Source: an uncultured bacterium (GTDB lineage Bacteria > Verrucomicrobiota > Kiritimatiellia > CAIVKH01). From it: 64,000 nt of DNA. Location of the stretch: the NCBI GenBank assembly GCA_937958885.1, contig CALGMT010000029.1, forward strand, positions 18,744 to 82,743, given 5' to 3'. The notes under the pieces were generated by a model. The model made no database searches. It saw nothing but the letters and a program-made list of their open reading frames with translations, and was not told the DNA's origin. The position numbers and the translations under genes were made by a program. Of this stretch, positions 10,025-59,537 are shown in pieces. The number at the start of each line of letters is the position of its first letter. Positions within the stretch are counted from its first letter, which is position 1.

Positions 10025-10509
10025 ATCGCACCCCCGTTTGCGGGGCCGTTCTCCGGCGCAACCATCCAAATGACGACCGCGCCGCTCGTCTGATCTTCGT
10101 ACACCATCGCCGATGCGCCCGGCAACGCCGCATCCACCCATTCCACGCGAGGAGCCGCAAGCGCGGTCGGCGGCGACAGCACCCGCGTCGAAAAAAGGCC
10201 CACGCCTGCGAACAGCACGAGCGTCGCCGCAATCGCCGCCCAATCCCATCGGAATCGAATCCTGGCTGCTTCGTGCTCCTGCGCCTTGAGCAGATGAATC
10301 GCGCGGCGTACGTCGTTCCACATCACTTCGGCCGGCGGCGTCGGGATCGGCTGACGGCGGAGGCGGGCGCCGATATTTTCCCATTCTTCCAACGCTTCCT
10401 CGATCAAGGCGGGCTGGGTCTTCCGCGCGTCGAGCGCATGCGTCGCGCGAGCGTCCAGCTCGCCGTCGCGCCGGCGGCTCCACCGCTTGAGCTCCTTGAA
10501 AATATTCAT
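10021..10509 (-). CDS. single-pass membrane protein, candidate anti-sigma factor
   Basis: The product is 162 aa from ATG 10509, overlapping the sigma gene's stop (ATGA). It has a cytoplasmic N-terminal part of about 88 residues rich in helices and charges, one TM segment (WAAIAATLVLFAGVGLF, about 91-107), and a periplasmic tail of about 55 residues. Position and topology are those of a membrane anti-sigma factor controlling the ECF sigma encoded just upstream. The usual zinc-binding HxxxCxxC motif is absent, so it would be a non-zinc type; the assignment is by context. Translational coupling in both directions supports fixed stoichiometry with its partners. Confidence 0.7.
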   Translation of the reverse strand: MNIFKELKRWSRRRDGELDARATHALDARKTQPALIEEALEEWENIGARLRRQPIPTPPAEVMWNDVRRAIHLLKAQEHEAARIRFRWDWAAIAATLVLFAGVGLFSTRVLSPPTALAAPRVEWVDAALPGASAMVYEDQTSGAVVIWMVAPENGPANGGAI

Positions 10510-11123
10510 CGTATTCCCCTTAACATTTCCTGCATCTGTCGTCTCGCATAATAAATTCGCGACATCACCGTGCCGGTACGGCACTTCATCGCCTGCCCGA
10601 TTTCCCGATACGACAGGCCCTCCACCTCGCGGAGAATCAGCGCCGCCCGGTGTTCCGGCGACAATCGCGCCAGCGCGGCCTCGAACGCGCGCCAGACCTC
10701 CTCGCGCTCCATCCCGCGATCGGGCCGGCCGACATCCGGCGGCTGCCACGCCGCCGCCGGACGCGGCTCGCGCTCCGGCGTCTCGTCCAGCGACACTTCT
10801 TTGCGCCGCGCCGACCGCCGCGCCTCGTCCAGCACCGCGTTCACCGCGATTCGATACATCCAGGTGAAAAACTGCGCATCGCCTTTGTACGACCCCAGCC
10901 GCTGCCAGGCCTTCACCCACGCCTGCTGCGCCAGCTCCCGCGCGTCCTCCGCATTGTTGACCATCCGATAGATCACGCCGTACACCCGCCCGTGAAACGC
11001 CTTCACCAACTCGCCGAACGCCTCTTCGTCGCCGCCGCGCGCGCGCGCGACCAGCGCATCCACCGCCGCGCGCGACAGCGAACGCTCTTCGGTATTGGAC
11101 GGCGCGGGCGCGTCGTTATTCAT
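10506..11123 (-). CDS. ECF (RpoE-type) RNA polymerase sigma factor
   Basis: The protein is 205 aa. Region 2 is at about 25-95 (EEAFGELVKAFHGRVYGVIY and EDARELAQQAWVKAWQRL), a linker of about 40 residues follows, and region 4 is at about 145-200 with the HTH LSYREIGQAMKCRTGTVMSRI. It directs RNA polymerase to a stress or envelope regulon and is likely held by the membrane protein encoded next. The start ATG 11123 is followed upstream (minus strand) by GGAAG at 4-5 nt, which is itself the end of a 17-nt repeated motif found twice in this leader. Autoregulation is common in such operons, but no promoter pair was identified. Confidence 0.93.
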   Translation of the reverse strand: MNNDAPAPSNTEERSLSRAAVDALVARARGGDEEAFGELVKAFHGRVYGVIYRMVNNAEDARELAQQAWVKAWQRLGSYKGDAQFFTWMYRIAVNAVLDEARRSARRKEVSLDETPEREPRPAAAWQPPDVGRPDRGMEREEVWRAFEAALARLSPEHRAALILREVEGLSYREIGQAMKCRTGTVMSRIYYARRQMQEMLRGIR

Positions 11124-11127
11124 CGGC

Positions 11128-11175
11128 TTCCATGCTCTGTAAAAAATAATGTTCTCGTTTCCATGCTATGTAAAA
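11128..11175. repeat. pair of 17-nt motifs TTCCATGCTMTGTAAAA, 31-bp spacing
   Basis: Copy 1 starts at 11128 (TTCCATGCTCTGTAAAA) and copy 2 at 11159 (TTCCATGCTATGTAAAA). The start-to-start distance is 31 bp, about three helical turns. Each copy is an imperfect palindrome (TTTCCA...TGTAAA). The pair fills the gap between the phosphoesterase gene and the ECF sigma gene. The same motif, with the same spacing, recurs at 49251-49299. Confidence 0.75.
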
Positions 11176-11187
11176 TCAGGTTCCCGC

Positions 11188-12108
11188 TCACGGGCGGCGC
11201 GCGGTCCAGCCAAGCTCTACATACTGCCAATCCACCCGGTCTCGACGCAGGGTCACGACGCCGAAACCGGGCTCGGTTCCCATCCAGGCCCCGCGCCACC
11301 ACTTGCCGCAGACCGCGCCGCCGGTAATGAACGAGGTCCGGTTCCAACGCAGGATTTCATCCACATGCAGGTGACCTTGCAGCACGAGCGGCACGCGCCG
11401 CCCGGCGAGCAGGTCGAGCACGTCGCGGTTGTTGACCACAATCCGGTTGCGGGGCGCGGGATTCTCGCCGCCCTCGGTAGCCTGAAAGAAGGTGGTGAGC
11501 AACGGCATGTGCGTGACCAACACGATCGGCGTTGTTTCCGGAACGCGCGCGAGTTCTTCGCGCAGCCACACGAGCTGCGCGGCATCGACATAGCCGCGGT
11601 ACTTCAATTCATCGCGCGTAACGTCGACCGTATCCAGCACGATCACCCGGCATCCGCCTGCGTCGATGGAGCGGACAGTTTCCGACACGCCTAATTCGGC
11701 GCGAAACACCGCGCGCGGATCCGCCTCCGGCGCGCTGCCGTCCTTCGGCATCGCGCCGACGAGATCGTGGTTGCCGAGCGCGGTGATGGGGCGCGTTTCA
11801 AGGCGATCGGCAAGATGCTCGCGATAGGCGCGCCAGCGGTGCGCGACCGACTCGCGCGACGCCTCGAACCCGTCGGTGATGCAATCGCCCCCGCAGATCA
11901 ACACATCGGCCTTCTCGCGATTGATGAGATCCGCCGCCAGCTCCATCGCGACGGGCGTCTCCCATTCCACGCGCGCGTGGATGTCGGTGAAAAATACGAT
12001 GCGCACGGCGTCGCGCGGACCGTTCGCCTGCGCCCAGCTCGCGCGCCGTGGGAATCCGAGGCTCATCGCCGCCGCGGTCGCCGCCGTCAAAAATTCACGC
12101 CGATTCAT
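11188..12108 (-). CDS. Tat-exported calcineurin-like metallophosphoesterase
   Basis: The product is 306 aa from ATG 12108 and begins MNRREFLTAATAAA, a twin-arginine signal. The metallophosphoesterase motifs are in order: FFTDIHARVEW (D-x-H), CGGDCITDGFE (GGD), ITALGNHDLVG (GNHD), VLVTHMPL (H), and LQGHLHVDEI (GHxH). It is expected to hydrolyse a phosphoester in the periplasm; the substrate cannot be inferred. The start overlaps the end of the upstream VanZ-like gene by 14 bp, making it the last gene of the malQ-VanZ-VanZ-phosphoesterase transcript. The 22 extra residues in the track ORF precede the Tat signal and are not used. Confidence 0.88.
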   Translation of the reverse strand: MNRREFLTAATAAAMSLGFPRRASWAQANGPRDAVRIVFFTDIHARVEWETPVAMELAADLINREKADVLICGGDCITDGFEASRESVAHRWRAYREHLADRLETRPITALGNHDLVGAMPKDGSAPEADPRAVFRAELGVSETVRSIDAGGCRVIVLDTVDVTRDELKYRGYVDAAQLVWLREELARVPETTPIVLVTHMPLLTTFFQATEGGENPAPRNRIVVNNRDVLDLLAGRRVPLVLQGHLHVDEILRWNRTSFITGGAVCGKWWRGAWMGTEPGFGVVTLRRDRVDWQYVELGWTARRP

Positions 12109-13357
12109 AAGTGCCGCCCGCCGCAGGCCGTCTGCGGCGCCGGCCATCATAGGCCCCCGCCGCGGCGAGGACAAGCCAAGCGCCCGCCGCCGCGGTCTGC
12201 GCCTCGCGGCGCGTCCAGCGCGTCACCAGCTCGCGGCTGACGGGGCTGTCATACGGACCCGGCCGCGCAGCGGCCTCCGCGCGGGCCCGCAACTCTTTCG
12301 GCCAGTCGCGGCGCGCCGCGCGGAGGGTGTGGCCGAAATAGGACTCCAGAATTCGCTGCTCGCCGAAGGCGACGGTGATGAATTCTTCGTGCTTCGCCGG
12401 ATCGCCGCGGTTCGCGCGCGCGTCGTTCCAATAGCGGTCGCGCCGAAACAGGCGGACGCGCAGCTCATGCAAAAACGGATCCGTGATGGCCGAATAGCGC
12501 TTGAGAAACGCGGCATACTCCTTGTCCGACCCCATGCGCCGCAGGATTTCGCCGGCCTCCTCCGCGCGAGCGCGGTCGGTTGCGCGGAGCCGTTCCGGCG
12601 CGAGACGCGAACGGAAGCGTCCGATCTCGGGATCGACGATCAGGTGTCCGTATTCCGTCATGGCCTCGTCAAAGACGAAAAGGCCGGGGCGATAGGAGTA
12701 GAGCGGTTTCCACACATCGGGCGTGTTCGAGACAATGCCGAGCATCAGCAGCGCGGTCAGCCGCGCCAGACGCCACGCCATCCGCGCGGAACGCATTCCG
12801 GCGGGGATCGACGCGATCCGCGGGGCGAGCCCGGCGGCGAGTCCCAGTTGGATCAGCCAGACCGAGCCTGCGTTGATCGCGATGTCGCGATAATCGAAAT
12901 AGCGGCGCGGGACCGCCCACTGGATCACCTCGTCGAACACGCCCAGCATCGCGCCCAACAGCGCGGCGCACGCGAACGCTCCGCGATCGCCGTAGCGATC
13001 CGCATACGCGCGGTAGAGCAACCACGACAACACACCGTATTGCACAAAATGCATTGCCTCTTCCGCATTGCCGCGCAAGTGCCAGGCGCCCCCGCAAAAC
13101 AGCGCGGCGAGCGCCAGAAGAATCACCCACTGCCTCGGCGCGACGGCCGAAGCGCTTCGGCGAAGCGCTATGAGGGACAACACGCATGCAACCGCGATCG
13201 CGGCGAACACCGCCCACATGAACGCGTCGCGCGTCCAGTGCTCCGTCACCCACGTCTGAATTTGGCGCGCGATCGGAATCGTGGCGTAGATGAAAAGCGT
13301 CCACAGCACGACCGCCGTCCAATTCAACGCTTGTCTGGCTTTTGGGGTAGGCATCAT
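12095..13357 (-). CDS. VanZ-like membrane protein with large C-terminal domain, copy 2
   Basis: The product is 420 aa from ATG 13357 (ATGA overlap with copy 1). There are five to six TM segments over about 1-215. The VanZ-like signatures are EEAMHFVQYGVLSWLLYRAY (helix with H and Y) and DEVIQWAVPRRYFDYRDIAINAGSV (E/Q-W plus R-x-x-D-x-x-D-I-x-x-N). A soluble region of about 150 residues containing LIVDPEIGRFRSRL, a long Arg/Glu helix and FITVAFGEQRILESYFGHTL follows, then one last hydrophobic helix near the end. It is clearly paralogous to the upstream gene over its whole length. VanZ-like proteins are membrane proteins of mostly unknown activity; the extension makes this an unusual subgroup. 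Confidence 0.75.
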   Translation of the reverse strand: MMPTPKARQALNWTAVVLWTLFIYATIPIARQIQTWVTEHWTRDAFMWAVFAAIAVACVLSLIALRRSASAVAPRQWVILLALAALFCGGAWHLRGNAEEAMHFVQYGVLSWLLYRAYADRYGDRGAFACAALLGAMLGVFDEVIQWAVPRRYFDYRDIAINAGSVWLIQLGLAAGLAPRIASIPAGMRSARMAWRLARLTALLMLGIVSNTPDVWKPLYSYRPGLFVFDEAMTEYGHLIVDPEIGRFRSRLAPERLRATDRARAEEAGEILRRMGSDKEYAAFLKRYSAITDPFLHELRVRLFRRDRYWNDARANRGDPAKHEEFITVAFGEQRILESYFGHTLRAARRDWPKELRARAEAAARPGPYDSPVSRELVTRWTRREAQTAAAGAWLVLAAAGAYDGRRRRRPAAGGTYESA

Positions 13358-47796: not shown

Positions 47797-48276
47797 ATGA
47801 ACAACCTGTGGGCGCCCTGGCGCATCGAATACATCCTGGCCCCGCGCGATGGCGAATGCTTCTTGTGCAAAATATTCGCCGAAACGAGCGATGCCGCGAA
47901 TCTGATTCTCCACCGCGGCCCTACGTGCGCCGTCGTAATGAACCGCTACCCCTACACCGGCGGACACCTGATGGTTTGTCCCTACCGACACATCGCGGAA
48001 TTTACCGACCTCACCCGCGAGGAGCGCATCGAGATCATGGACCTCACCGAGCGGTGCATTGCCATTCTAACCCGCCGGATGAAGCCGCAGGGCTTCAACA
48101 TCGGCTACAACCTCGGCTACGCCGCCGGCGCGGGTCTGAAAGATCATCTTCATCAGCACATCGTGCCGCGCTGGATCGGCGACACCAACCTGATGCCTGT
48201 GCTCGGCGGTGTGACCGTGGTCCCGCAGGCGCTCAATGACCTCTACGCCGCGCTCAAACCCGACTTCGATGCCTGA
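47797..48276 (+). CDS. HIT-family nucleotide hydrolase/transferase
   Basis: The protein is 159 aa. WAPWRIEYI at the N-terminus, CFLCKIF (zinc-binding type CxxC), MNRYPYTGGHLMVCPYRHIAE and the histidine triad HLHQHIVPRW are all present. Proteins of this length with a CxxC belong to the AP4A phosphorylase/HIT branch acting on dinucleoside polyphosphates or adenosine phosphoramidates. The downstream phoH gene overlaps its stop, a pairing also seen elsewhere in bacteria. The exact substrate is unknown. Confidence 0.92.
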   Translation: MNNLWAPWRIEYILAPRDGECFLCKIFAETSDAANLILHRGPTCAVVMNRYPYTGGHLMVCPYRHIAEFTDLTREERIEIMDLTERCIAILTRRMKPQGFNIGYNLGYAAGAGLKDHLHQHIVPRWIGDTNLMPVLGGVTVVPQALNDLYAALKPDFDA

Positions 48277-49231
48277 CGTCACGCTCCATTTCGACAACAC
48301 CCGCGAGGTCCAGGAGCTGCTCGGCCGCCGCGCAGAACTACTGCCTCAACTCGAATCGGCGTTCGGCGTCCGCCTCACCGCGCGCGATCTCTGGCTCAAA
48401 ATCGAAGGCGAGGCCGCCGCCGTCGCACGGGTTCGACGCCTCGTCGACACCCTCCGCGTCGCGCGCCAGTCCGGCGTCTCCCTGCGCGAACCCGGCATTG
48501 CGTACGCCGTGCAAGCCTTCCTCGACGGACGCGAAACGGAACTCGAGCGGCTGTACGAGAATCGCATCGAAGTCGCCGACGGCAAACCCGCCATTTTCGC
48601 CCGCACCTTCGGCCAACTGCGCTACCTGGAAGCGATCCGCCGGCACGATTTTGTGTTCGGCATCGGTCCCGCCGGCACCGGAAAAACGTATCTCGCCATG
48701 GCGATGGCGGTGTCGGAACTCATCCGGGGGGAGGTCAGTCGGATCATCCTCACCCGCCCCGCCGTCGAGGCGGGCGAAAACCTCGGATTCCTGCCCGGCG
48801 ACCTTCAGCAAAAAGTGCTGCCCTACCTCCGCCCGTTGTACGACGCGCTCTACGACATGATGGGACCCGAACGAATCGAACGCTGCACCGAGCGCGGCGT
48901 GATTGAAGTTGCGCCCCTCGCCTACATGCGCGGCCGCACGCTGAACCATGCGTTTGTGATTTTGGACGAGGCGCAGAACACCACGCCCGAACAAATGCTG
49001 ATGTTCCTCACGCGCCTCGGCTTCGACTCCAAGTGCGTCATTACCGGCGACCTCACGCAAGTGGATCTCCCCTCGCACAAAACCTCCGGCCTGCTCGAAG
49101 CGCGCCGTACGCTGCGCAATGTGGAGGGCATCGCGCTCGTCGAGCTGGCCGAGGAAGATGTCGTTCGCCATCCCCTCGTGCAGAAGATCATTCAGGCCTA
49201 TCGCGCCGACCGCGCCGCGCCGAAAGCCTGA
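48269..49231 (+). CDS. phoH: PhoH family ATPase
   Basis: The protein is 320 aa from ATG 48269, overlapping the HIT stop by 8 bp; the track start is upstream of the HIT stop. It has an N-terminal KH-like region (about 1-90) and a C-terminal P-loop ATPase with Walker A GIGPAGTGKTYLAM, Walker B FVILDEAQNTTPEQM and sensor VITGDLTQVDLPSHKTSGL. PhoH-like proteins are RNA helicase or ribonuclease-associated factors, often next to ybeY; ybeY is not seen here. Two copies of the 17-nt repeat follow the stop codon. Confidence 0.94.
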   Translation: MPDVTLHFDNTREVQELLGRRAELLPQLESAFGVRLTARDLWLKIEGEAAAVARVRRLVDTLRVARQSGVSLREPGIAYAVQAFLDGRETELERLYENRIEVADGKPAIFARTFGQLRYLEAIRRHDFVFGIGPAGTGKTYLAMAMAVSELIRGEVSRIILTRPAVEAGENLGFLPGDLQQKVLPYLRPLYDALYDMMGPERIERCTERGVIEVAPLAYMRGRTLNHAFVILDEAQNTTPEQMLMFLTRLGFDSKCVITGDLTQVDLPSHKTSGLLEARRTLRNVEGIALVELAEEDVVRHPLVQKIIQAYRADRAAPKA

Positions 49232-49250
49232 ACGCGCCGCGCCCAAAAAG

Positions 49251-49367: not shown

Positions 49368-51740
49368 ATGCGAGCCGATCGGTTGGCCATTCTCGCAACG
49401 CTCATCGCCTGTGCGGCGCACGCGCAGGATGTCGGACCGATGGGCGTGACCGCGGAACCCGGAGGGCTGCGCGTGCGCGTATGGGCGCCGAATGCCCATC
49501 AGGTCGAAATCATCGGCGATTTCAATAATTGGCGCGCGATGGGCTCCGAACGCCTTGCGCGCGAGGGCGATTCGGGCGTTTGGTCCACCTTTCTCAAGCG
49601 CAGCCTGCCGCGCGGCAGTTATCGCTTTTTGATCAATGGCTCGCTGAATCGGCGGGATCCTTACGGACGCGCCGTGTCGGCGGATGAGAAGGCCACGCTT
49701 TTCTACAATACGTCCGCGTTCGATTGGACCGGCGACACGCCGCCTAAACTGGCGCTCGACGATTTGGTGATCTATGAGCTGCACGTCGGCTCGTTCTTCG
49801 ACCCGGACCTGCGCGACGGACAGCCGGGCCGTTTCGCCGACGTCGCGCGCAGACTCGACCATCTGCAGGAGCTCGGCGTCAATGTGATCCAGCTCTTGCC
49901 GGTGCACGAATTTTACGGGCGCCACAGTTGGGGCTACAACCCCAGCGACCCGTTCGCCGTGGAGCAGGCGTACGGCGGACCCGACGCGTTCAAGGCGTTC
50001 GTCAAAGAATGCCACCGCCGCGGCTTCGCCGTGCACCTCGACATCGTGCATAATCATTACGGGCCGCAGAACCTCGATCTCTTGCGCTTCGACGGCGTCG
50101 GGGGATACCAAAACGGCGGCATCTATTTTTATGACCAGCCCGGCCTCGATATGACCCCGTGGGGGCCGCGCGTCCGATTCGACGAACCGATGGTGCGCCG
50201 CTACATCCGCGACAACGCCCTGATGTGGCTGGAGGAATACCGCATCGACGGCTTCCGCTGGGATTCGACAGTGAATATCCGCGCGTACAACGAGGGGCGC
50301 GACGCGATTCCCGCCGGCGCGCGCATGCTCGAGGAGATTAACCGCGAAATCCGAGCGCGATTCCCGCATGTGCACAGCATCGCGGAGGACTCGCTCGACA
50401 TCGGCAATTTTCATGCCTCGTGGGACTACGAGTTCCACCACGCGGTGATGCCGGAGCTAAAGCGCCCGGATGGAGAGCGGCGAATGGGCATCTTCGCCAA
50501 TGCCCTGACGGCGGAATACAGGATGCCGCGCGTCGTCTATGTGGACAACCACGACGAGGCGGGACAACTCAACGGGCAGGTTCGCATCGCGTCGGATATC
50601 GATCCCGCCAATCCAGGCAGCGATCGCGCGCGCAAAATCGCCCAACTCGGCGCGGTCCTCACGTTCACCGCGCCGGGCATTCCGTTGCTCTTCATGGGAA
50701 ATGAGTTCCTCGAAAGCGGAACCTTCCACGAGGACCGCCCTCTCGATTGGAGCAAGCGCCGCACTTTCGCCGGCGTGTTCGCGCTTCACCGGGACTTGAT
50801 TCGATTGCGTCGCAATCTCGATGGCGCGGGGATCGCGCTCAAAGGCAGAGGGATTGCGACGCCGGTGGTCGACGATGTGCGCCAAGTTCTGGCGTATTGG
50901 CGCTGGAACGACACGCACCCCGCCGATCGCATGGTGGTCGTCATCAATTTTTCCGGCAACGAGCAGGCGAACATCGCGGTACCGTTCCCTTCCGAAGGTC
51001 CTTGGATTACGCGGTTTCACTCCGAGTGGACGCGATACGGCGGCGCCGTGCGCGAGGAGGCGGCAGCGTTCAATTTCAAGGGGATCACCCCGCGCGGATC
51101 GATCACGCTGCCGCCCTACAGCGCGCGTATTTTCGCCCTCTCGCCGGGCGCCGCCGCCCAGCGACCGATTGAGCCGCCGCCGATCGAGCGGAATATTCCG
51201 CCCCCGCCCGGCGGGGGGTTCTCGATGTACGCCGGCATCCGCGTTGTCGGCCGCAACCAAAACGGCGCGCCGTTCGAGGTCCCGCTCAAACGCACCGGCG
51301 TGCTATGGGAGGGCATCTTGCGGCTCACCGGCGTTACCGGCGGCTCGCTTCGTCTCGCCGCGAACGATGACGGCGTGATCTACTGGGGCGTCCCCTACAC
51401 GCCGCTCGCCCAACTTCCGTTCGAAGCCTCGGCCGAGCGGCTTGGCGACGACCTGCACATTCGCGCGCCGCTCGATGGCAGCTACCGCATTCGTTTCAAT
51501 GAGGAAACTCTCTCGCTCTCCATCGAGCATATAAACGAAACCCCGCCGCCGACCGCCGCCCCGCTGCGCACATGGACCGACGCGCGCGGGCGCGCAATCG
51601 AAGCGCGGTTCATCGCCCTCCGCGGCGACACCGTGACACTCGAGCGCGCCGACGGACGGTCGATCGAGATCAAATTGCCGGCGCTGAGCCCGGCGGACCA
51701 GGCCGCGGCGCGCGAATCCGCCGCCCGCCTCGCGCCTTGA
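49368..51740 (+). CDS. secreted GH13 alpha-amylase-family enzyme with C-terminal SHD1-like domain
   Basis: The protein is 790 aa from ATG 49368; the track start (49326) lacks the signal-peptide context. It has a signal peptide (ILATLIACAAHAQDV), then a CBM48/E-set domain (about 25-110; VRVWAPNAHQVEIIGDFNNW). A GH13 barrel follows with VHLDIVHNHY, EYRIDGFRWDSTV (nucleophile Asp), SIAEDSLD (acid Glu) and VVYVDNHDEAG. Next come an all-beta C domain and a Pro-rich linker (about 615), then a further beta module. The last 60 residues are SHD1-like (TWTDARGRAIEARFIALRGD and IKLPALSPADQAA). The barrel resembles branching enzymes and trehalohydrolases; the exact reaction is undetermined. Confidence 0.88.
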   Translation: MRADRLAILATLIACAAHAQDVGPMGVTAEPGGLRVRVWAPNAHQVEIIGDFNNWRAMGSERLAREGDSGVWSTFLKRSLPRGSYRFLINGSLNRRDPYGRAVSADEKATLFYNTSAFDWTGDTPPKLALDDLVIYELHVGSFFDPDLRDGQPGRFADVARRLDHLQELGVNVIQLLPVHEFYGRHSWGYNPSDPFAVEQAYGGPDAFKAFVKECHRRGFAVHLDIVHNHYGPQNLDLLRFDGVGGYQNGGIYFYDQPGLDMTPWGPRVRFDEPMVRRYIRDNALMWLEEYRIDGFRWDSTVNIRAYNEGRDAIPAGARMLEEINREIRARFPHVHSIAEDSLDIGNFHASWDYEFHHAVMPELKRPDGERRMGIFANALTAEYRMPRVVYVDNHDEAGQLNGQVRIASDIDPANPGSDRARKIAQLGAVLTFTAPGIPLLFMGNEFLESGTFHEDRPLDWSKRRTFAGVFALHRDLIRLRRNLDGAGIALKGRGIATPVVDDVRQVLAYWRWNDTHPADRMVVVINFSGNEQANIAVPFPSEGPWITRFHSEWTRYGGAVREEAAAFNFKGITPRGSITLPPYSARIFALSPGAAAQRPIEPPPIERNIPPPPGGGFSMYAGIRVVGRNQNGAPFEVPLKRTGVLWEGILRLTGVTGGSLRLAANDDGVIYWGVPYTPLAQLPFEASAERLGDDLHIRAPLDGSYRIRFNEETLSLSIEHINETPPPTAAPLRTWTDARGRAIEARFIALRGDTVTLERADGRSIEIKLPALSPADQAAARESAARLAP

Positions 51741-58553: not shown

Positions 58554-59537
58554 CGATGCGCCGGAAATCGCGGCAACGGCGGAGCGCCATGCGACAATCT
58601 TTGCGGCAACATCGAGAACGCCTTCGCGCCACGCGGTGAACCGACTCGCGATTTCACGCCGGGTCTCCTCCAGCGTGTCCGCCTGACGCTCTAAGCGCTC
58701 AAATTCCATAACCAAGGGTGGCAGATTAAACTTCGATTGGTTGAGTTGCTCCATGGCCTGCCATGCGGGGCCAGGATCGGGCGGCGGCGCCCCGACGGAA
58801 GGGGCGCGTCTGCGCGATGTGCGCGCAAAGTCTGCCGCGGCTGATGCTTTCTCGAGGCCCGCAAGGGCTTCCGCCATTCGAATGCCAGCCTCGCGGCGGT
58901 GCGCTTCGTGCTCAGCCATGCGCGTCTCCCATGCGCGGCGCTCTGCGCGCCATGCCAAACGCCGTTCGGTGTACGCCTTCTGAAGTGCGAGGAGCGCATT
59001 GCCCTCGCGCTCCAATACATCGACATCCTTAACCCGTGCCGTGAAGTCGGGCTGTAAATCCTGCAGCTTCCTCAGCGTTTCCAGAGTCGTCGCGAAGGTC
59101 GCCAGATCGATCGCCGGAGAACGCGCCGATTCCCGCTCCAACCGTGAGTGCAAGGCGTCCAATGACTCCTTCGCGTCGGCGAGCGCACGTCGCATGGCTT
59201 CGCCGTCAACGCGCATCGCTCCCTGCTCGTCATAGGCGCGCGCAAGCGCGCGCTGCAACTCGTGGACCTCGGCCTCGACACGCCCCGTGAAGCGGATCAA
59301 GAGAACCGCGGCGGTCGTTGCCACCGCGATCAGCAAACCTAGAAATATCAAGCCCAGCGCCACCATTCGGCGGCGCGCTTTACGGCGTTCGATTTCCAGG
59401 AATTCCTGGAACGCCTGCAATACAGGCAATCGGGATCCGAACGGCTGAATTCCGCCCCCCGCGCGCAGCGCCAGTCCATCCTGGCTCGTCGCAAGACTGC
59501 GTACCTGCTGCTTGACAATCTGCGGGGGCAGTTCCAC
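58548..59537 (-). CDS. single-pass membrane coiled-coil protein of unknown function
   Basis: The protein is 329 aa, GTG start 59537, 16 bp after the large coiled-coil gene. It has a cytoplasmic N-terminus of about 55 residues, a TM helix (VALGLIFLGLLIAVATTAAV, about 60-80), then a long, mostly helical Glu/Arg/Ala-rich periplasmic part with predicted coiled coils (AMRRALADAKESLDALHSRL, VDVLEREGNALLALQKAYTE) and a short Pro-rich insert. I do not recognise a family. Its final Lys precedes a TAA stop derived from a dispersed repeat. Operon context suggests it anchors or partners the giant coiled-coil protein. Confidence 0.7.
   Translation of the reverse strand: MELPPQIVKQQVRSLATSQDGLALRAGGGIQPFGSRLPVLQAFQEFLEIERRKARRRMVALGLIFLGLLIAVATTAAVLLIRFTGRVEAEVHELQRALARAYDEQGAMRVDGEAMRRALADAKESLDALHSRLERESARSPAIDLATFATTLETLRKLQDLQPDFTARVKDVDVLEREGNALLALQKAYTERRLAWRAERRAWETRMAEHEAHRREAGIRMAEALAGLEKASAAADFARTSRRRAPSVGAPPPDPGPAWQAMEQLNQSKFNLPPLVMEFERLERQADTLEETRREIASRFTAWREGVLDVAAKIVAWRSAVAAISGASK

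Follow-up and report, generated by a model that had tools for sequence, protein, structure and literature searches.

Helically phased palindrome arrays in Kiritimatiellia genomes, probable operator-like sites of an unidentified DNA-binding protein

NrdR boxes have the consensus acaCwAtATaTwGtgt. They are found as two tandem palindromes approximately 31–32 bp apart before ribonucleotide reductase genes (PMC2892513). The Ss-LrpB protein of Sulfolobus solfataricus recognizes several regularly spaced sites of 15-bp palindromes, where a dimer occupies each site, and binding is cooperative and accompanied by wrapping of DNA (PMC4046817). Two kinds of dispersed repeats are also relevant, namely, REP/BIME, which are high-copy extragenic palindromes with species-specific forms and RAYT transposases, and Rickettsia palindromic elements, which are small and palindromic and may be located in frame within coding sequences (PMC10969869).

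The arrays described here obey the same tandem spacing rule of 31–32 bp as NrdR boxes and, like Lrp/AsnC operators, consist of several regularly spaced 15-bp palindromes. Since both systems use tandem palindromes with similar spacing, they can be regarded, by analogy, as the closest functional analogues of the arrays, although no link to those proteins has been shown. In contrast to the arrays, which are counted in hundreds and contain 2–8 units, NrdR sites are few per genome, occur in pairs only and have another consensus; the Ss-LrpB consensus (TTGCAAAATTTGCAA) also differs from the TTCCA-N5-TGGAA of the arrays. The arrays resemble REP/BIME in being dispersed extragenic palindromes of high copy number with species-specific forms, but they are independent of Y1 transposases, form direct tandems with a helical phase, and have unconserved spacers in some genomes. 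In-frame placement inside genes, known for the Rickettsia elements, was also found in one genome (G013); however, those elements are approximately 150 bp long and mostly intragenic, whereas the arrays are mostly intergenic and do not match them in genic insertion. No earlier description of such arrays was found in the literature searched.

The window, i.e., the whole 64-kb stretch of DNA analyzed, contains two pairs of a 17-nt motif. According to our estimate, with a probability of about 0.7, these pairs belong to a class-wide family of operator-like arrays that bind a protein at the DNA level; no binder was found. The earlier note had stated that both pairs have a start-to-start distance of exactly 31 bp, that the window holds no further copy, and that both are intergenic, one in the leader of an ECF sigma operon and the other between phoH and a GH13 gene. 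A search of both strands with up to three mismatches confirmed four copies in total, TTCCATGCTCTGTAAAA starting at 11128, 49251, and 49282 and TTCCATGCTATGTAAAA starting at 11159, while dinucleotide shuffles give an expectation of 0.04. The intergenic location agrees with gene and Pfam positions. The features are as follows.

10506–11123, minus strand: ECF sigma factor gene (Pfam Sigma70_r2, Sigma70_r4_2), start codon 4 bp from array 1
11128–11144, plus strand: array 1, unit 1, TTCCATGCTCTGTAAAA, from the motif search
11145–11158, no strand: array 1 spacer, 14 bp, AATAATGTTCTCGT
11159–11175, plus strand: array 1, unit 2, TTCCATGCTATGTAAAA, start 31 bp from unit 1
11188–12174, minus strand: calcineurin-like phosphoesterase gene (Pfam Metallophos), stop codon 12 bp from array 1
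48269–49231, plus strand: phoH (Pfam PhoH), upstream of array 2
49245–49250, plus strand: left A-tract edge of array 2, AAAAAG, common to many arrays of this genome
49251–49267, plus strand: array 2, unit 1, TTCCATGCTCTGTAAAA
49268–49281, no strand: array 2 spacer, 14 bp, ACTTTTTTTAAAAG, near the spacer consensus of this genome
49282–49298, plus strand: array 2, unit 2, TTCCATGCTCTGTAAAA, start 31 bp from unit 1
49368–51740, plus strand: secreted GH13 alpha-amylase family gene with CBM48 (Pfam Alpha-amylase, CBM_48)

Array 1 fills the 64-bp gap between the phosphoesterase and ECF sigma genes, and array 2 lies between phoH and the CBM48/GH13 gene. In addition, a lone perfect palindrome with wider arm spacing (TTCCAGGAATTCCTGGAA) is located at 59394–59411 of the window. 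An array directly 3' of phoH was also found in a genome of the same genus (G002) and in one of the same family (G003), so that together with the window's genome (G000) this position is occupied by three dialects. G001 and G007 have no array there; in both, a conserved gene that reads as ybeY-like comes immediately after phoH.

The genome of the window (a 2.58 Mb draft) was accessed via searches and individual loci only, not read as a whole, and gene positions in it were obtained with a simple home-made gene caller. With up to three mismatches allowed, the 17-mer occurs there 208 times (103 forward and 105 reverse) and its reversed control 2 times; these counts, the shuffles, and the absence of reversed matches in relatives exclude a chance origin of the motif. 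The unit of this genome is TTCCATGCTCTGTAA, with A-tracts 3' of it, and the array consensus is AAAAAG-[TTCCATGCTCTGTAA]-AAACTTTTTTTAAAAC-[TTCCATGCTCTGTAA]-AAACTTTTTT in a GC-rich context. The 27 non-redundant arrays read have 2–4 units each, and all include at least one step of 31 bp (32 bp in one); some terminate with an inverted unit, TTCCATGCTMTGTAATTTACAGAGCATGGAA, at an offset of 14–16 bp. Although 87% of the DNA is coding, 24 of the 26 placeable arrays are intergenic, the other two overlap a predicted start by 6 bp, and none of the 26 lies clearly within a predicted gene. Of the 18 arrays in co-oriented gaps, 16 lie nearer to the stop codon of the upstream gene (median of approximately 20 bp) than to the start of the downstream one; arrays were also seen in either orientation and in gaps flanked by convergent or divergent genes. 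The genes downstream of the arrays (RecA, RuvB, SOD, L19, DapA, RfbC, MatE, and amylase included) share no function. Genome-wide copies with random spacing and mostly in coding regions, named beforehand as the refuting outcome, were looked for, and the opposite was found, namely, a fixed distance of 31/32 bp and an intergenic position.

In relatives, the observed form is TTCCA-N5-TGGAA, a palindrome with A and T tracts on its sides that is present in tandem copies. The canonical unit is TTCCAATGATTGGAA with 31 bp spacing; there is also a TGTAAAA form. TTCCA-N5-TGGAA is the ancestral form of the unit. The imperfect palindromy noticed earlier in the motif represents an eroded version of this perfect palindrome found across the class.

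The distribution of the arrays was assessed with a pair pattern whose spacing could vary freely between 19 and 49 bp, the reversed pattern serving as a control. The pattern matched in 31 of 58 relatives, with 1 to 1,359 pairs per genome, and the control gave 0 throughout. Among 289 genomes sampled from the phylum, 38 were positive, 37 of them from the same class, so the arrays are practically restricted to Kiritimatiellia. The exception, G094 from another class of the phylum, has three pairs; its array (G094:C52:13635-13744, L406), the sole one found outside the class, comprises four palindromes with steps of approximately 33, 29, and 33 bp. A three-unit pattern was compared with 11.3 million genome contigs, and among the matches listed were metagenome-assembled genomes labelled Kiritimatiellae, Lentisphaerae, Verrucomicrobia, Spartobacteria, or uncultured bacteria. 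One of the Kiritimatiellae records matches G041 without a difference over 3.2 kb, and the class is assigned to Kiritimatiellia on this basis. Genomes with and without arrays can occur within one genus (G039 vs. G011/G028; G185/G245 vs. G093/G123). In the class-wide set, 7 of 128 non-edge arrays are within genes. Specificity for promoters was dropped as an explanation, since the gap types of arrays match those of gaps of 80 bp or more in general, and no recurrent neighbouring gene family other than pheS stood out.

Only 12 stretches with arrays were detected in 2.9 million viral contigs of IMG/VR; therefore, phages are not the main carriers. The viral loci L446 (3034-3079), L447 (2786-2915), and L450/L454 bear the same phased arrays, and those of L446 and L447 precede genes that are similar to each other and seem to encode the small terminase subunit of a phage. 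In three bacterial genomes (G021, G034, and G044), so many arrays are located near contig ends, often within approximately 100 bp, that they probably break the assemblies.

Separate arrays of G021 share spacers in identical order (mean best match of 14.7 of 16–17 positions, 10.8 being expected), indicating that whole arrays were copied. In the window's genome, the spacers also resemble one another, and part of the identical 31 bp spacing there is therefore due to copying. Because of such copying in both genomes, equal spacing within one genome is not independent evidence, and independent evidence for phasing comes from genomes other than that of the window. When spacings of 19–49 bp were permitted, the best loci of 30 genomes gave spacings of 31 bp (28 cases), 32 bp (19), and 16 bp (2), i.e., 47 of 49 were 31 or 32 bp, and twenty contiguous 20-kb stretches agreed with these values. 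An unbiased set was provided by 1.1 Mb of loci that had been fetched for other reasons and not chosen by motif. In this set, 60 of 68 nearest spacings were 31 or 32 bp, the remaining eight (21, 22, 30, 33, 42, 62, 63, and 84 bp) were all near multiples of approximately 10.5 bp, and phase coherence reached its maximum, 0.94, at 10.45 bp. Since 10.5 bp is the helical repeat of DNA, about three turns of which make up 31–32 bp, the phasing points to proteins docked along one face of the helix and not to an RNA or coding constraint. A constant spacing was also seen in G039, although its 18 spacers bear no relation to one another. A 22-bp step is also used in family f26 (G126, G139, G130, G243, G251, and G280), several members of which have the dialect TTCCACGGTGTGGAA.

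Conservation of the arms was observed in two comparisons of orthologous arrays. One set the pheS leader of G051 against that of JAISGX (L144), and the other used the in-gene array that G013 shares with G151 in a SufD-like gene. The arms were identical at 60 of 60 positions, compared with 50 of 86 positions for cores and spacers (p = 1e-10); thus, the 5-bp core and the 16–17 bp spacer drift, and the arms and the phase are retained. The pheS leaders came from genomes in which arrays had already been seen, and this comparison is therefore biased, whereas that of the in-gene array was unselected on the G151 side. Fisher p-values overstate independence, because the genomes are related.

By coincidence, the array loci contained five pheS genes, each with an array of 3–8 palindromes immediately in front of its start codon. 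The pheS genes of relatives were then fetched by protein similarity, and in array-rich genomes (at least 10 pairs), an array was present no more than 250 bp upstream of pheS in 14 of 23 cases, versus 1 of 18 for nrdR and 0 of 17 for lrp (together 1 of 35; p = 1e-6). The position recurs across families; dialects of these arrays vary (TTCCAATCGTTGGAA, TTCCACTCAATGGAA, and TTTTACAGAGTATGGAA in the window's genome), while position and spacing are repeated. In several pheS leaders, a TATA-like −10 sequence precedes the first palindrome by 20–45 bp, and the array may thus be transcribed as part of the leader, as far as can be read from the sequence. A regulator encoded in the pheST operon itself was considered and rejected: the downstream genes are pheT, rarA, and a 5-formyltetrahydrofolate cyclo-ligase-like gene (names from translations), with no DNA-binding regulator.

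In the heavily loaded genome G013, several arrays are placed in frame inside genes. One of them is located in a SufD-like gene (L232:10413-10459), where it encodes the peptide FQTLETGRGDFSKPWKNG; it is also present in G151 and absent from the G040 orthologue (L264 and L265 compared). In a nucleotidyltransferase-like gene of two genomes, a six-unit array occupies approximately the same place (L132:609-778 and L201:1294-1453) in different frames (VVNGDTLLPNLDF... and VLNGDSLAPALDV...). Target-site duplications were not recognized. Since the arms are conserved, yet arrays have been copied (G021 and the window's genome) and vary in presence among orthologues of the SufD-like gene, the arrays are both retained by constraint and multiplied, by a route that remains unidentified. 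The alternatives proposed in the earlier note, a dimeric or cooperative binding protein or else a mobile unit, in this respect both appear partly true: phasing and conservation confined to the arms support the former and ordered shared spacers the latter.

The binding protein is unidentified: presence of RAYT transposases, Lrp, and NrdR was surveyed over 58 genomes (Y1/RAYT, Lrp/AsnC, NrdR), and none of them distinguishes genomes that have arrays from those that lack them. The transposase domain PF01797 has no match in G021 (79 pairs), G050 (99), and G039 (18) and many matches in array-free genomes; the correlation of Y1 counts with arrays is weak (Spearman 0.19, p 0.15). Nearly every genome encodes NrdR, array-free genomes among them, and it was not found in the array-bearing, possibly incomplete G015. 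Lrp/AsnC is present in all array-bearing and most array-free genomes, in nearly all as a single copy; the five genomes without Lrp are all array-free, which is only weakly in its favor. The low counts of arrays at nrdR and lrp given above also concern the candidates' own genes. This survey of binders was not unbiased, and the analysis as a whole is limited by draft genomes, the home-made gene caller, and the relatedness of the genomes.

Weighing against an operator function are the unrelated functions of downstream genes, the lack of an identified binder, and the in-frame genic arrays of G013, which are unexpected for regulatory sites. The unrelated functions, together with the closeness of arrays to gene 3' ends in the window's genome, would suit a purely selfish dispersed repeat similar to REP, MITE, or Rickettsia palindromic elements, which would have no host function, would have inherited its spacing from a master copy, and would be bound by its own mobilizing enzyme. 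The ordered spacers of G021 (14.7 vs. 10.8), the similar spacers in the window's genome, the SufD-like gene array missing from G040, and the abundance of arrays at contig ends also fit such a repeat. It is nevertheless considered unlikely: a master copy is at odds with the unrelated but constantly spaced units of G039 and with arms that are conserved when spacers are not, and selfish spread is at odds with a pheS position kept over many families. Moreover, Y1 counts do not track the arrays (none in G021, G039, and G050), and no target-site duplication was recognized.

An element acting at the RNA level, in which leader hairpins or terminators work post-transcriptionally, seems very improbable. 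Canonical palindromes can fold (z of −3.3 for a two-unit piece of a pheS leader), and the pheS arrays stand immediately before the start codon; but the helical phasing is a property of DNA, and RNA folding of the array of the window's genome is no better than that of shuffles (z of −1.3 and 0.4). In addition, no intrinsic terminator (GC-rich hairpin with a T-run) was seen at the 49251 array, Rfam families gave no match in seven pheS loci, and the arrays also occupy gaps between convergent or divergent genes, in either orientation. A sequence for self-recognition, such as the DNA-uptake sequences of competence, can hardly be credited at all: hundreds of dispersed copies, lineage dialects, and tolerated genic placement in some genomes are compatible with it, whereas the recurrent pheS position is not, and uptake sequences are not known to form phased tandem palindromes.

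For the reading as operator-like protein-binding arrays, a mechanism can be inferred that includes dimer binding, cooperativity on the same helix face, and an effect on transcription. A dimer of a DNA-binding protein common to these bacteria would bind each palindrome, and neighboring dimers on one face of the helix would touch and bend or wrap DNA. At pheS, binding just before the start codon could throttle transcription; elsewhere, most arrays may be boundary or nucleoid-organizing sites or locally without effect. Whole arrays were also copied into new positions in some lineages, that of the window among them, through an unidentified mechanism. A bolder version, which we put forward tentatively and hold at somewhat less than even odds, is that an undescribed oligomeric protein recognizing TTCCA-N5-TGGAA is a class-wide architectural or global regulator with hundreds to more than 1,000 phased arrays per genome, pheS being its ancient core target and the spread elsewhere being lineage-specific.

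Thus, approximately every second genome sampled from one bacterial class has arrays, with a maximum of 1,359 pairs in a single genome. The arrays offer a ready bait (two palindromes, 31 bp) for the unidentified protein, together with a measurable target, pheS, and genomes with none, few, or many arrays form a natural series. Operator-like sites with the spreading behavior of a mobile repeat would link regulation with selfish DNA, and this link is testable by comparison.
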